A stretch of DNA of 64,000 bases from the NCBI RefSeq assembly GCF_021729155.1, contig NZ_JAJQYA010000001.1, positions 62,001 to 126,000 of the forward strand. The letters run 5' to 3'. The position numbers and the translations under genes are program-made. Source of the stretch: Membranihabitans marinus (GTDB lineage Bacteria > Bacteroidota > Bacteroidia > Chitinophagales > Saprospiraceae). Position 1 is the first letter of the stretch. The number at the start of each line of letters is the position of its first letter. Below are positions 1 to 60,319 of the stretch, piece after piece. The notes under the pieces were generated by a model. That model was given only the letters and a program-made list of their open reading frames with translations, made no database searches and was not told the DNA's origin.

Positions 1-283
1 GTAAGGTAGAAAAATTGAAAAAAGTGAATCAATAAGAATTGAAAAAAAGTTGATAAGCACTTAAGAGATCATCCTCTTTACACATTTTCATTGTTCATTC
101 ATTTGCTAAAGGGCAAAATTGTGAATAAGCCATAAGTTATTCACATTTCTCTCCACAAAACATAGATTTTTTCATTTTTATAAATCATTATATATTAGTT
201 TTTTAAAGATTATTATAAAAAGTTATGTTTGTAACAATTAAAACATATTATAATTTTTCTTAATTTGTTTGCAATTAAACAAA
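1..283. other. Candidate replication origin (DnaA-box-like cluster)
   Basis: This is a non-coding, very AT-rich leader. Two perfect inverted copies of a DnaA-box-like 9-mer are visible: TGTGAATAA at 120-128 and TTATTCACA at 137-145, separated by 8 bp. Weaker matches are CTTTACACA near 75-83 and CTCTCCACA near 149-157. An A+T-rich stretch follows to about 283 and could serve as an unwinding element. Almost all genes from 284 to 22997 point away from this site, as expected for a leading strand. The boxes are seen; the origin role is inference. There is no dnaA gene beside it, and the window edge cuts off whatever lies to the left. A 9-bp inverted repeat could instead be an operator. Confidence 0.33.
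224..231 (+). promoter_or_regulatory. Possible -7 promoter element (TATGTTTG)
   Basis: TATGTTTG fits the Bacteroidota -7 consensus TAnnTTTG and lies about 50 bp before the first gene. No clear TTG or TTTG is seen at the expected -33 position, so this is a weak call. Confidence 0.25.
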
Positions 284-877
284 ATGAACATGGGCGATCT
301 ATTAAATTATCAATCAGACAAAAAAACTATTGTGGAACTATTGGAAAATGGTATTCACTTTTCCCCTTATTTATTAAGGGATTTCAACATTGCGAAAGGA
401 GAATATTTTCCTGCAATTGTACAATCTCATACCTCTAAGGTATACATGATGTCATGGGGAATTGACAATTACAATCAGTCATTAACACTGACTCAGATTT
501 ATTTTAAGTCGTTTGAAAAACAAAGCAGTTTAAAAAAATTGTTGGTTAACAATCGAATTCTAATACCTGTCAACCAACTCATGCAAAACAAAGATGAATA
601 TAAACCTGAGTTAGTAATTAGGTCTAAGGAAAACAATATTCTTTATATGGCAGGTATATGGAAGGAGAATGAAGATGGTAGTCTTGGTTTTGCTATTATT
701 ACCAAAGATGTAACGGAAGAATATTCAAGTAAAATCAGGAGAATCCCTTTGTTTATAACATCAAGAGAAGATATAGCTACATGGTTGAAAAAGGATACTA
801 AGATTATTAATGAATTAAATTATTTTTTAAAAAAGAAGGTGGATGTAGAAATTTTACACGACATAATTTTAGTATAA
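284..877 (+). CDS. Hypothetical protein, 197 aa
   Basis: I do not recognise this soluble protein. There is no signal peptide or membrane segment. It is a mixed alpha/beta sequence with a middle section rich in I/L/Y strands and a Lys-rich C-terminus. I take ATG at 284; an in-frame TTG at 269 and a second ATG at 290 are alternatives. It ends 6 bp before dtd and is probably cotranscribed with dtd and the MazG-like gene. The short gap and steady composition suggest a real gene rather than a random frame. No function is claimed. Confidence 0.75.
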   Translation: MNMGDLLNYQSDKKTIVELLENGIHFSPYLLRDFNIAKGEYFPAIVQSHTSKVYMMSWGIDNYNQSLTLTQIYFKSFEKQSSLKKLLVNNRILIPVNQLMQNKDEYKPELVIRSKENNILYMAGIWKENEDGSLGFAIITKDVTEEYSSKIRRIPLFITSREDIATWLKKDTKIINELNYFLKKKVDVEILHDIILV

Positions 878-883
878 GATAAT

Positions 884-1336
884 ATGCGTGCATTAATTCA
901 ACGTGTTTCAAAAGCACATGTTAAAATAGATGGCAAAATCAAATCGGAGATAGGTCAGGGTCTTGTTTGTCTTTTGGGTATTGAAAAACATCATAATAAA
1001 GAAGATATTCCTTGGTTGATAAAAAAGATTCTTCAATTGAGGATATTTTCAGATGAAGAAGGTAAAATGAATCTTTCCGTACAAGATGTATTTGGTGAAA
1101 TACTAGTCATTAGTCAATTTACTTTATTTGCCAGTACCAAAAAGGGAAACAGACCATCGTTTATTGGATCGGAAAATCCTGAGCTTGCTGAAAAAACTTA
1201 CTTGGAATTTATAGATTTTATGGAATCTCTTTATCCCAACAAAATAAAGACGGGAGAATTTGGAGGAGATATGAAAGTTTCATTAACCAATGATGGACCA
1301 GTAACCATAATGATAGATTCTAACGCCAGAGAATAA
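884..1336 (+). CDS. dtd: D-aminoacyl-tRNA deacylase
   Basis: This enzyme hydrolyses D-amino acids mischarged onto tRNA and so protects translation in the cytoplasm. The 150-aa length is normal for the DTD family. It starts with the typical MRALIQRV strand, carries the SQFTLFA signature near residues 78-84, which holds the catalytic loop, and ends with the NDGPVT motif (the Gly-Pro pair that excludes L-amino acids) near residues 136-141. It follows the preceding gene by 6 bp and precedes the MazG-like gene by 20 bp. The dtd-mazG-like pairing is one I know from other Bacteroidota. Family assignment is firm. Confidence 0.96.
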   Translation: MRALIQRVSKAHVKIDGKIKSEIGQGLVCLLGIEKHHNKEDIPWLIKKILQLRIFSDEEGKMNLSVQDVFGEILVISQFTLFASTKKGNRPSFIGSENPELAEKTYLEFIDFMESLYPNKIKTGEFGGDMKVSLTNDGPVTIMIDSNARE

Positions 1337-1356: not shown

Positions 1357-1692
1357 ATGGAAATCAAGGCTTATCAACAATTAGTGGATCAATGGATACA
1401 AAAATACGGTGTTCGATATTTTGATGAAAAAACAAATATGTTGCTTCTTATGGAAGAAGTAGGAGAGTTGTCTCGTTTAATAGCTAGAATATATGGTGAG
1501 CAATCTTTTAAACAGGGAATGACTGCCGACAAATCATCTATAGAAGATGAAATGGCTGATATCTTTTTTGTTTTGACATGTTTATGCAATCAAATGGATA
1601 TTGATATTACAAATATTATAAATAAAAATATTCAAAAAAAAACGCAGCGAGATAGTGAAAGACACCAAAAAAATGATAAATTAAATAGATAA
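1357..1692 (+). CDS. MazG-like nucleotide pyrophosphohydrolase
   Basis: This is a small all-alpha NTP pyrophosphohydrolase of the MazG superfamily, which converts (d)NTPs to monophosphates and PPi and is usually a house-cleaning enzyme. The metal-binding motifs are visible as EEVGEL near residues 28-33 and DEMADIFF near residues 64-71, matching the EExxE...ExxD pattern. At 111 aa it is a single-domain version, unlike the two-domain E. coli MazG. The C-terminal tail is Lys/Gln-rich and probably disordered. It sits in a run with dtd. The exact substrate cannot be read from sequence. Confidence 0.9.
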   Translation: MEIKAYQQLVDQWIQKYGVRYFDEKTNMLLLMEEVGELSRLIARIYGEQSFKQGMTADKSSIEDEMADIFFVLTCLCNQMDIDITNIINKNIQKKTQRDSERHQKNDKLNR

Positions 1693-1715: not shown

Positions 1716-2933
1716 GTGAATATACCAATAAGTCAAGAAAAATTTACTAGGGAACTAGAAAAAAGAGATCAACAGATCCACTGCTTAATGCAAATAACGG
1801 AAGCCATCAATCACAATGCTTCAGTAACAGATCTCTTTGATATTTTTCGAAAGTCTATTCAAAAACATTACAGTCCTGAAGGCATCACTCTATGTGTTCA
1901 AGAAAATAAAGAATGGCTTACTTATAGTACGATTGATAATGCAAAATCAATTGATTATTCACATCAATTTAGTTATTACTCAAAAGGCAAAAACAATTTA
2001 CACACTTCTGATTACGGAGATATATATATCCCTGTTTACCACAAGCAACAGTTGATAGCCTTGGCTCATTTTTATAAGTTATTTCCAGAAAGCAAGGAAG
2101 AAATAAGGTTTTTGAAGACGATTACCAATTTTATTGCCATTGCTATTGAGAATAAGAGATTGTCTAAAGAGAAAAGGGAAAAGGAACATTACAAAACCCA
2201 ATTGTCTTTGGCCAGGAAAATTCAATTGTCATTAATGCCCAAAAAACTGTCGGATACTAGGGAACTGGAGTTTGAGACCCTATACATCCCACATAGTGAA
2301 ATAAGTGGGGATTACTTCGACTTTTTCCACATTGAAAACAGTAATATTAGTATTTTTTGTATAGCAGATGTTGCTGGTAAAGGAATTCCAGCGGCTATAC
2401 TTATGGCGAATTTACAGGCTAGTTTGCGTAGACTGAGTATTAATTTTACAGATATTGTTTCCTTAATTCGCGGATTGAATGAAGCTGTTTATGATACCAC
2501 TGAGGGAGATAGGGTAGTGACCATATTTTTAGCTGCCTACGATGTAATGAAAAATGAATTGTTGTATATCAATGCTGGACATAACTATCCTATTTTACAA
2601 CAAGAAGAAGGATATACTAAATTTTTAAAAGAAGGGACTATTCCTCTAGGTGTAATTAGAGATCTACCAGAAATCGTCGTGGGCAAAGAAGAAATCAATA
2701 AAGAAACCGTTATATTATCATATACTGATGGCTTGGAAGAATTGAGAAATGGTGAAGGAAAAATGATGGGCCACGACAAAATTTTAGAAAACCTTCAAGA
2801 TATTAGTTTTGGTAATATAGATGCGATAAGAGATAAAATAGAGGGGTTTATCGAAAATTTTAAAGAAAATGAGCCAATACTAGATGATATCACTGTTTTA
2901 TTATGTAAAATAAAGCCGAACGGAATTACATAA
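1716..2933 (+). CDS. GAF-like + SpoIIE (PP2C-type) serine phosphatase
   Basis: This is a PPM/PP2C-type phosphatase of the SpoIIE/RsbU class, usually a signalling enzyme acting on phosphorylated STAS anti-sigma antagonists. An N-terminal helix is followed by a GAF-like sensor at roughly residues 20-150. A linker helix with the phrase LARKIQLSLMPK, typical of this class, leads into the catalytic domain at about 190-400. The metal-binding positions are seen in SGDYFDF and DVAGKGIPAA, then NAGHNYP, SYTDGLEE and a terminal DDITVL. The start is GTG at 1716; no closer ATG keeps the N-terminus. No partner STAS or kinase gene is adjacent, so its target is unknown. The TM2 gene begins 6 bp downstream. 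Confidence 0.9.
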   Translation: MNIPISQEKFTRELEKRDQQIHCLMQITEAINHNASVTDLFDIFRKSIQKHYSPEGITLCVQENKEWLTYSTIDNAKSIDYSHQFSYYSKGKNNLHTSDYGDIYIPVYHKQQLIALAHFYKLFPESKEEIRFLKTITNFIAIAIENKRLSKEKREKEHYKTQLSLARKIQLSLMPKKLSDTRELEFETLYIPHSEISGDYFDFFHIENSNISIFCIADVAGKGIPAAILMANLQASLRRLSINFTDIVSLIRGLNEAVYDTTEGDRVVTIFLAAYDVMKNELLYINAGHNYPILQQEEGYTKFLKEGTIPLGVIRDLPEIVVGKEEINKETVILSYTDGLEELRNGEGKMMGHDKILENLQDISFGNIDAIRDKIEGFIENFKENEPILDDITVLLCKIKPNGIT

Positions 2934-16698: not shown

Positions 16699-16714
16699 GT
16701 AGGGTTAATCCTAC
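16699..16714. terminator. Weak terminator between convergent genes
   Basis: GTAGG (16699-16703) and CCTAC (16710-16714) form a 5-bp stem with a 6-base loop between two convergent genes, and a T-rich stretch follows on the plus strand. The stem is short, so this is tentative. Confidence 0.35.
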
Positions 16715-17379
16715 TCTTTGGGTTTTTGCAAGTGCCATATGTAGAAGTCTCGTTTCATTTCTTCCCCGAGTTTGGATTTAATGATTTCTGTATGACTGTC
16801 CAAGGATATGGTTTTGAATTTAGATTGTGAACTTAGATCTTCAATGGAAGAATCATCGTATTTTTTAAATCCGTACTTTGTAAAAGGCAATTTTTCTAAA
16901 GTGGAAGCTTGTACAAAGGTGATGATTAAACTTCCCAAAGGTTTCAATACCCTGTAGATTTCTTCTAGAAAAACCTGTGGTTCTTTCCAAAAGTACAAAG
17001 TGTTTACTGTAAATATTTTGTGGAAGTAATGGTTATCATAGGGAATATTTTCTCCAGAATACCATTGAAAGAAAGCTCGATGGTGATTTACATGGATTTG
17101 ATTGATGCGAATGGCTTCTTCAATCATCAAAGGCGAAATATCTAAACCGTAGTATTTTATATTTTCTGCAATTCCAAGAATTCTGTCCAGATGAGATGCC
17201 AAGCCTGGACCTATTTCTAATACCTTGTCCTTTGATTGAATTTTTAATTGTTCAACTGTTGACCAAGTCATAAAGATATTGGATTCATGCATTAACTGAC
17301 CTATTTCTATTCCCGTATCGCCTGAAGGACAAGACAATTGAGATGCCAGTAATTTCAGACCTTCTTCATATTGATTCAT
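16711..17379 (-). CDS. Class I SAM-dependent methyltransferase
   Basis: This is a Rossmann-fold methyltransferase. Motif I is VLEIGPGLASHLDRIL, followed by YYGLDISPLMIEEA (motif II acidic residue binding the ribose of SAM), FHKIFTVNTLYFWKEP and EIYRVLKPLGSLIITF, the order found in UbiE-like small-molecule methyltransferases. I start at ATG 17379 (222 aa). A GTG at 17433 would add 18 residues with no family features. It is the only minus-strand gene in the first 23 kb. Its substrate is unknown. Confidence 0.85.
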   Translation of the reverse strand: MNQYEEGLKLLASQLSCPSGDTGIEIGQLMHESNIFMTWSTVEQLKIQSKDKVLEIGPGLASHLDRILGIAENIKYYGLDISPLMIEEAIRINQIHVNHHRAFFQWYSGENIPYDNHYFHKIFTVNTLYFWKEPQVFLEEIYRVLKPLGSLIITFVQASTLEKLPFTKYGFKKYDDSSIEDLSSQSKFKTISLDSHTEIIKSKLGEEMKRDFYIWHLQKPKE

Positions 17380-17433
17380 AATTGCATAATAGATGGTGTT
17401 GAAACTGTAATTCGTATTAAAGGTAGAATTCAC

Positions 17434-58469: not shown

Positions 58470-60319
58470 GGCAACATTACGTTATTAATTAAGTCGGATT
58501 TCATCATGCGATCTTCAAGCCATTTTCTGCTTGAATTGATTTCTCCGTTTATATATTTTTCTACAATAAAACTCGCTATGGGAGCGGCATAACTTCCACC
58601 CCAGCCTCCATTTTCTATAAACACAGCAATGGCAATTTTGGGGTTGTCTTTTGGTGCGAATGCAAAAAAGACGGAATGGTCTTTTCCGCTGTTTTCCGAG
58701 GTTCCGGTCTTGCCACATATTTCTATATCGGGAATGTTGGCAGCACCTGCTGTACCCGCTACTATAGCACTTCTCATCCCTTCGATTATGGGCTCAAAAT
58801 ACTCCTCCTCAATACTTACTTTCTGGAATTCAGTATATTTTTTAGGTAAGCTTTCTGTGGAATTGTCGATGGTCTTAATGACGTGGGGCATCTTGTATTT
58901 GCCTCTATTGGCTATTATAGATACGGCATGAGCCATTTGCAAGGTAGTCAGTTCGGTTTCCCCTTGACCTATGGCATTGGATATTATATAAGTAAATCGC
59001 CAATCTCCCTTATTGCGATACAAGTCGTCGTAGTAGGCAGGGGTTGGGTTAAAACCAGTACTTTCTAAAGGCAGGTCAATTTCTAGTTTTTTGCCCAAGC
59101 CGAATTCATCCAACCTACGGTGTAGGTCAAACAATCCATTTTCCGGTTTATTGAATCCGTACTTGTTAATCAAATCTCTATATACAGTAAAAAAATAGGT
59201 ATTACAAGATCTCGATATTGCAGTATTCAGGTTGTTGTTTCCCCCACCGGCATGACATCGCCAAATATTATTCCCATAATGATATCCACCGCTACATCCG
59301 ATGCGATCGGTGGTTTTAATGACTCCTTCTTGAAGGGCTATAAGTCCGAGTATGGGTTTGAATATACTTCCCGGCGGATAATGAGCCATAATGGACCTAT
59401 CGTAAAACGGCTTAAGGGTATCGGCGTAAAGTTCTTTAAATTTTTCTCCGCGATTTTGACCGATGGATAGATCTTCGAGGTTGAAGCCCGGATTACTCAA
59501 CATAACTAAGACTTCTCCAGAACTGGGTTCAAGAGCTACAATCCCTCCTTTTTTATTGGCCATTAATTTTTCCGCATAGCGTTGAAGTTCGATATCTAGA
59601 CCCAGTTTGAGATCTGACCCTGAAATGGCTTCCTTATTTTTTGTTCCATTTAAATAATCACCTACTCTCCTTCCCAAGTTGTCCTTTAATTCATAGCGAT
59701 GTCCTTTTTCTCCCTTGAGTACTTCTTCATAAAACACCTCTACACCGCTTTTACCTATATAATCTCCAGCTACGTAGTTGAGATCTGGATTGTCTACCAA
59801 GTCTTTGTCTACCTCTGATATATACCCAAGTACATGAGATGCAGTGGGGTATTTATATCCTCGTACCACTTCTTTGGTTAAAGAAAATCCGGGGAATGAA
59901 TATAAATTTTCCTTTAGTCTAAAGGCAATGGTATCCGGTATTCTGGACATAAAGGTAAAGGGCACAAATTTTGAATACCTGACGTCCGACCAATTTTTTT
60001 CAATGTTTTTTTCAAAAAACTCAAGATCGATATTGAGCAAATCGCAGAGCAATGTTGTGTCCATATTGGCATCCATGTCGTTGTATACCACATTGACATC
60101 GTAGACAAATTTGTTGAAAACCACCAGTTCTCCATTGCGGTCGTAAACTAAACCTCTCGAAGGTTTTTGAACAGTTTCTACAAGGGAAGTCGTATTGGCC
60201 TTGTCTTGGGACTGCTTGTCCAATAATTGAATCTTGGCTACCTTTGCCAGTAGGAAGGTGAAACTAAATAATACCAGTGCAAGTATTAACTTATATCTAT
60301 AACTTTGATCCAAAGCCAT
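58466..60319 (-). CDS. mrdA: Penicillin-binding protein 2
   Basis: This class B PBP is the transpeptidase of the elongasome and works with RodA (13061-14455). It has 617 aa. One N-terminal membrane helix (KLILALVLFSFTFLLA) is followed by the PBP dimerisation domain. The transpeptidase domain has the active-site SxxK in PPGSIFKPILG, SxN in SRSCNTYFF and KTGT in ICGKTGTSENSG. It follows mreD by 6 bp and completes the mreBCD-mrdA operon. Confidence 0.95.
   Translation of the reverse strand: MALDQSYRYKLILALVLFSFTFLLAKVAKIQLLDKQSQDKANTTSLVETVQKPSRGLVYDRNGELVVFNKFVYDVNVVYNDMDANMDTTLLCDLLNIDLEFFEKNIEKNWSDVRYSKFVPFTFMSRIPDTIAFRLKENLYSFPGFSLTKEVVRGYKYPTASHVLGYISEVDKDLVDNPDLNYVAGDYIGKSGVEVFYEEVLKGEKGHRYELKDNLGRRVGDYLNGTKNKEAISGSDLKLGLDIELQRYAEKLMANKKGGIVALEPSSGEVLVMLSNPGFNLEDLSIGQNRGEKFKELYADTLKPFYDRSIMAHYPPGSIFKPILGLIALQEGVIKTTDRIGCSGGYHYGNNIWRCHAGGGNNNLNTAISRSCNTYFFTVYRDLINKYGFNKPENGLFDLHRRLDEFGLGKKLEIDLPLESTGFNPTPAYYDDLYRNKGDWRFTYIISNAIGQGETELTTLQMAHAVSIIANRGKYKMPHVIKTIDNSTESLPKKYTEFQKVSIEEEYFEPIIEGMRSAIVAGTAGAANIPDIEICGKTGTSENSGKDHSVFFAFAPKDNPKIAIAVFIENGGWGGSYAAPIASFIVEKYINGEINSSRKWLEDRMMKSDLINNVMLP

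Follow-up and report, generated by a model that had tools for sequence, protein, structure and literature searches.

A canonical bacterial DnaA-dependent oriC combines a cluster of DnaA boxes with an AT-rich unwinding element, and the parS consensus of ParABS systems carries a T at position 5. In the Bacteroidetes, an oriC remote from dnaA is described as common in the available part of PMC4755523, which includes a predicted oriC for Prevotella intermedia OMA14. For the Saprospiraceae, we found no report of an oriC in one open-licence library, the partial matches being, by title, on other subjects.

We analyzed 64,000 nucleotides (the window, C11:62001-126000) from contig C11 (398,098 bases) of the Membranihabitans marinus genome (G000), a 5.4-Mb draft of 78 contigs. 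Like the canonical DnaA-dependent oriC, the locus at the left edge of the window has DnaA boxes and an adjoining AT-rich stretch; unlike it, it has few exact boxes and no dnaA beside it. With the predicted oriC of P. intermedia OMA14, as described in the available part of PMC4755523, it shares a skew change and several DnaA boxes far from dnaA; the lineage is another one, and parS-like sites are also seen here. The initial annotation of the window had noted that the origin in Bacteroidota is often away from dnaA, and this agrees with that source as far as its available text goes.

The ctaA/dtd gap and its DnaA boxes

The candidate oriC is a 490-bp gap (C11:61800-62289) with the divergent ctaA/COX15 gene on one side and a SRAP-like gene followed by dtd on the other (Table 1). 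Because it lies at the left edge of the window, its sequence was taken in full from C11.

Table 1. Features of the candidate origin and its neighborhood (window positions unless C11 is given)
Feature	Position	Strand	Remarks
ctaA/COX15	C11:60753-61799	-	PF02628, E 7e-82
Putative oriC gap, right part	1-289		~200 bp of the gap lie left of the window
Weak DnaA box CTTTACACA	76-84	+	1 mismatch
DnaA box TTATTCACA, left arm of the pair	120-128	-	same place in G002, weaker in G001
DnaA box TTATTCACA, right arm of the pair	137-145	+	one mismatch in G002 and G001
Very weak box CTCTCCACA	149-157	+	2 mismatches, read from sequence
Candidate DNA unwinding element	167-270		92% A+T over 167-226, 89% over 171-270
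SRAP (YedK/HMCES-like) gene	290-877	+	PF02586, E 8e-14; first right of the gap; alternative starts 269, 284
dtd, D-aminoacyl-tRNA deacylase	884-1336	+	PF02580, E 2e-57; synteny marker
mazG, MazG-type pyrophosphohydrolase	1357-1692	+	PF03819; synteny marker
SpoIIE-type phosphatase	1716-2933	+	PF07228; synteny marker

The sequence elements named in the initial annotation are all present: a perfect inverted pair of boxes, reading TGTGAATAA in the left arm and TTATTCACA in the right, two weaker boxes, and an AT-rich flank whose composition over 171-270 is matched by 0.02% of the 100-bp windows of C11. The pair by itself is weak evidence and not decisive, since the 7 occurrences of TTATNCACA in the window (shuffle mean, 3.95) were reached by 8 of 100 shuffles and since three places in the genome have strict boxes this close together. 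Among strict-box pairs 1-31 bp apart, two are inverted like that of the gap, one is direct, and none has the opposite inversion; the other inverted pair of the gap's kind overlaps the start of a coding frame.

Between ctaA and dtd (1,084 bp), we counted two exact TTWTNCACA sites against 0.29 expected, a number reached by 3 of 100 simulated sequences, and nine boxes with at most one mismatch against 5.55 expected, which is not significant (reached by 13 of 100). At a window size of 150 bp, the gap is the unique top of C11 (398 kb) for the density of DnaA-box-like sites. At 500 bp it is not the top: its score is reached by 0.48% of windows and exceeded at 63.5-64.4 kb and at 274.6 kb of C11. The box cluster expected of an oriC is seen at the 150-bp scale, with only two exact boxes and without the top rank at 500 bp. 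The expected AT-rich element lies beside the boxes, where melting would take place.

The 22-kb run of codirected genes that had been cited as a further sign holds except for the ORF at 16711-17433, which is on the opposite strand. We dropped this run as an origin indicator because the strand bias across the gap is small: plus-strand ORFs make up 52% of ORF length left of the gap and 61% right of it on C11, which makes the run a weak sign of an origin. The ORF at 16711-17433 is the sole minus-strand ORF of at least 100 amino acids in the run without a plus-strand ORF overlapping it, and its translation, judged by eye, resembles a methyltransferase.

GC skew and the position of dnaA

A skew minimum at this place had been named as the check on the origin proposal. 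We fitted a change-point model of third-codon-position GC skew with a gene-strand term to the 256 ORFs of C11. The strand-corrected change from negative to positive falls at the gap, whereas the raw cumulative skew is lowest ∼14 kb to its left. Of the boundaries tested on C11, the best was 61799/62269, with a residual of 621 compared to 1073 without a change; block permutation gave a best residual of 845 in 60 trials, and exactly this boundary was returned in 48 of 100 bootstraps. The strand term was small (-0.035 versus 0.156 for side). Computed in 4-kb steps, the raw cumulative skew was -1602 at 48 kb, its lowest value, versus -1531 at 64 kb; to the left of 48 kb the skew is mainly negative, and it is positive over the 32 kb right of 64 kb and most of the remainder. 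The ORFs at 48-57.5 kb are on the plus strand.

Beyond C11, skew was sampled at both ends (20 kb each) rather than in the interiors of 13 contigs, at one end of 7 large ones, and in one stretch or none of the rest. The sign was the same at both ends in 12 of the 13, and C3 was ambiguous (-0.010 to +0.157).

As had been proposed, dnaA does not adjoin the candidate oriC: it lies on a different contig (C33:204925-205410). A second dnaA-family match, on C45, was barely at the cut-off. The mean skew of C33 was positive in all eight stretches sampled, with single 5-kb pieces as low as -0.011. Seventeen kilobases from dnaA there is a step in third-position skew, where three ORFs (184.3-187.3 kb) average -0.08 and the rightward ones +0.14. 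Because a positive value (0.209) was found for 140-160 kb, this step, which rests on three weakly negative ORFs, looks local.

parS-like sites and synteny in the family

Outside the window, three parS-like sites (C11:56258, 57214, and 59932) lie left of the boxes at a distance of 2-6 kb; two of these are located in thrC or at its start. A whole-genome search with the parS consensus, allowing up to two mismatches, returned two places, 59932 (one mismatch) and 56258 (two mismatches) on C11. With the motif TGTTCCACGTGGAACA, again at up to two mismatches, these three sites were the only ones in the 5.4-Mb genome; this uniqueness is partly circular because the motif was fitted to sites seen first. 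At no more than one mismatch, C11 gives three sites and eight Markov-simulated C11 sequences give none, and no match to TGTTYCACGTGRAACA at up to two mismatches was found in 960 kb of other stretches of G000. The sites resemble ParABS parS in being near-palindromic 16-mers close to an origin and differ from the consensus in that all three have C, not T, at position 5. A perfect 16-base palindrome, ACGCAAGATCTTGCGT, occurs twice on C11, at 40621 and at 59028, the latter 3 kb from the gap.

Both congeners, G001 and G002, retain the gap. Alignment showed the inverted pair to be nearly intact in G002 (left arm unchanged, one mismatch in the right) and weaker in G001 (one mismatch per arm), with the remaining gap sequence largely diverged among the three genomes. 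The 60-bp stretch highest in A+T (92 to 93%, searched within 700 bp of ctaA) lies next to the pair, toward SRAP, in each of the three genomes; this is the layout to be expected of boxes next to a putative unwinding element. The excess of one-mismatch boxes in the congeners was not significant (reached by 7 of 100 simulations for G002 and 6 of 100 for G001). The change-point model put the best boundary at the same gap in G001 and in G035, in G001 as a near tie (228.1 versus 228.6 for the boundary on the other side of ctaA). For G002, the gap ranked second, behind the SRAP/dtd boundary.

DNA similarity to positions 1-900 of the window was found in 8 of 60 relatives, always within 166-282, the AT-rich part, and over no more than 47 letters of the query apart from one match of 64. 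The comparison needed protein synteny. From a family set of 36 genomes, 34 were examined around dtd; G021, without a dtd hit, and G015, whose dtd is at the end of a contig, were left out. The divergent arrangement of ctaA on the minus strand and dtd on the plus strand was found in 17 of the 34 (G001-G004, G006, G009, G011, G012, G014, G018, G019, G022, G025-G027, G034, and G035). A local skew flip accompanied it in 12 of 15 usable genomes and was absent in 3; where ctaA is not beside dtd (17 genomes), 2 of 15 usable genomes had a flip, and we rejected dtd alone as an origin marker. A one-sided Fisher test that ignores kinship gave p = 0.0003; the genomes are related, so these counts are not independent events. 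Four of the 34 rows were dropped from the count as short, three of which would be flips: G009 and G011, which have the arrangement, and G010, which lacks it. In G055, from another family, the sampled skew change lies ∼0.25-0.45 Mb from dtd.

For boxes with at most one mismatch, the count between ctaA and dtd was within the upper 5% of 100 simulations for 15 of the 17 genomes with the arrangement, all but G001 and G002; for exact boxes this held in 11 of 17. Compared to the two exact boxes of G000, eight of these relatives have more and six have fewer. The densest 500-bp box window fell inside ctaA-dtd in 14 of 17, tied with other places in two, and near the 3′ end of ctaA in G003, G011, and G018. 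In the 17 genomes without ctaA beside dtd, the best 500-bp score was 2-5 in 16 and 8 in G010, and in G010, G013, and G036 the top box window was still no more than 1.2 kb upstream of dtd. Some loci are short upstream of dtd (1.3 kb in G010, 1.7 kb in G029), so ctaA was possibly missed there.

At least two matches to TGTTYCACGTGRAACA, with up to two mismatches, were present near the gap in 10 of the 17 genomes with the arrangement and in 1 of the 17 without it, G036, in which the neighbors are others (thrC, SpoIIE, and nadK). The scans covered 180 kb in G001, 100 kb in G002, 40 kb in G035, and at most 20 kb elsewhere; within these lengths no parS-like sites were found in 7 of the 17, three of which are represented by loci shorter than 14 kb. 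Among the named records, SS_bin_77, R3_Bin_219, and Lewinella cohaerens carry sites of this kind, and the loci of MAG-55, MAG-141, Phaeodactylibacter, and g2_MAG show none.

We note several further observations on individual loci. In L206 (G011), L199 (G003), and L212 (G018), DnaA-box-like sites form another, denser cluster around the far end of ctaA, which may be part of a two-part origin. In L. cohaerens (L080), dtd and ctaA are not neighbors. The box window of highest density is found 3.8 kb downstream of dtd, shortly ahead of ctaA, and the locus has two parS-like sites toward its left end; in this species the origin may have remained at ctaA. L096 and L140, from records titled Akkermansiaceae and Verrucomicrobiae, have a dtd product 57% identical to that of the window, as near as those of Bacteroidota, and it is possible that they are mislabeled or mixed bins.

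The adjacent SRAP protein and the case for an origin

According to the accessible text of PMC9436759, the SRAP active site comprises Cys2, Glu105, His160, and residue 75. In the SRAP protein beside the gap, and likewise in its counterparts in L066 and L067, so that all three congeneric species agree, four conserved residues are replaced. These are the Cys that follows the initiator Met, the N-A-R Asn, the Y-E-W Glu, and the His preceding R-M-P. Four of five other distinct SRAP neighbors of dtd keep all four, and the SRAP beside the gap in G018 (L212) has Cys2 without the Glu and His. On C3 there is a further SRAP gene, in which a Cys follows a candidate start. The window protein is 49 and 43% identical to its two congeneric counterparts, one of which is truncated by a few residues at the N terminus; the frame is open in all three species. 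That it stays open at such identities suggests that the origin-adjacent SRAP has been retained, probably with a function other than that of the known SRAP enzyme. It is quite unlikely, in our estimate, that a SRAP without these residues has been repurposed as a noncovalent DNA-binding factor at the newly opened origin.

Taken together, these data support the initial reading of the locus as resembling a replication origin, and we regard it as highly probable that the gap between ctaA and SRAP-dtd is the chromosomal oriC. The skew change, the synteny, and the parS-like sites make this case, which the box pair alone would not decide. The alternative we took most seriously is that the gap is an ordinary promoter region between divergent genes, in which DnaA boxes occur by chance, and that the true origin is close by, with initiation elsewhere in the surrounding 10-20 kb, such as to the left of ctaA. 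The raw skew minimum at ∼48 kb would fit such a site, as would the higher 500-bp box density at 63.5-64.4 kb, the box-rich 3′ end of ctaA in G003, G011, and G018, and the boundary beyond ctaA that describes the skew of G001 nearly as well as the gap does. Against these stand the strand-corrected change-point, which falls at the gap here and, in three relatives, at this gap or adjacent to it, and the AT-rich stretch that adjoins the box pair in G000 and has been retained there in two congeners; we judge initiation elsewhere nearby to be very improbable.

We give next to no credence to a site that titrates DnaA or serves regulation without being an origin: box clusters alone fail to discriminate here, but a titration site would have no cause to coincide with a change in skew and to have parS-like sites next to it. 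No more credible is a skew change produced by a scaffolding join between two unrelated strands. The assembly is indeed a draft of 78 contigs; yet the same gene order and flip recur in the separately assembled genomes of relatives, and the N letters of C11 are all confined to a block at 388-392 kb.

The gap is thus very probably a DnaA-type oriC remote from dnaA. From the arrangement of its elements, we propose that DnaA, encoded elsewhere, would bind the inverted pair and the neighboring weak boxes and that the resulting complex would melt the ∼90% A+T stretch on the SRAP side. Helicase would be loaded at the melted stretch, and two forks would leave it, one leftward through ctaA and the other rightward through SRAP-dtd-mazG, while ParB, if bound to the three parS-like sites, may partition the new origins. 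An oriC away from dnaA in this genome is a new instance of a situation already reported for Bacteroidetes, as the available part of PMC4755523 describes it, and because remote origins are reported there as common, the kind of site is ordinary. A finding made on raw sequence has here been narrowed by computation to one gene boundary. For many genomes of the family, the ctaA/dtd gap, often accompanied by parS-like sites, would offer a practical landmark in place of dnaA, which would be misleading; the gap could be used for chromosome numbering, for estimating growth from read depth, and for building oriC plasmids.
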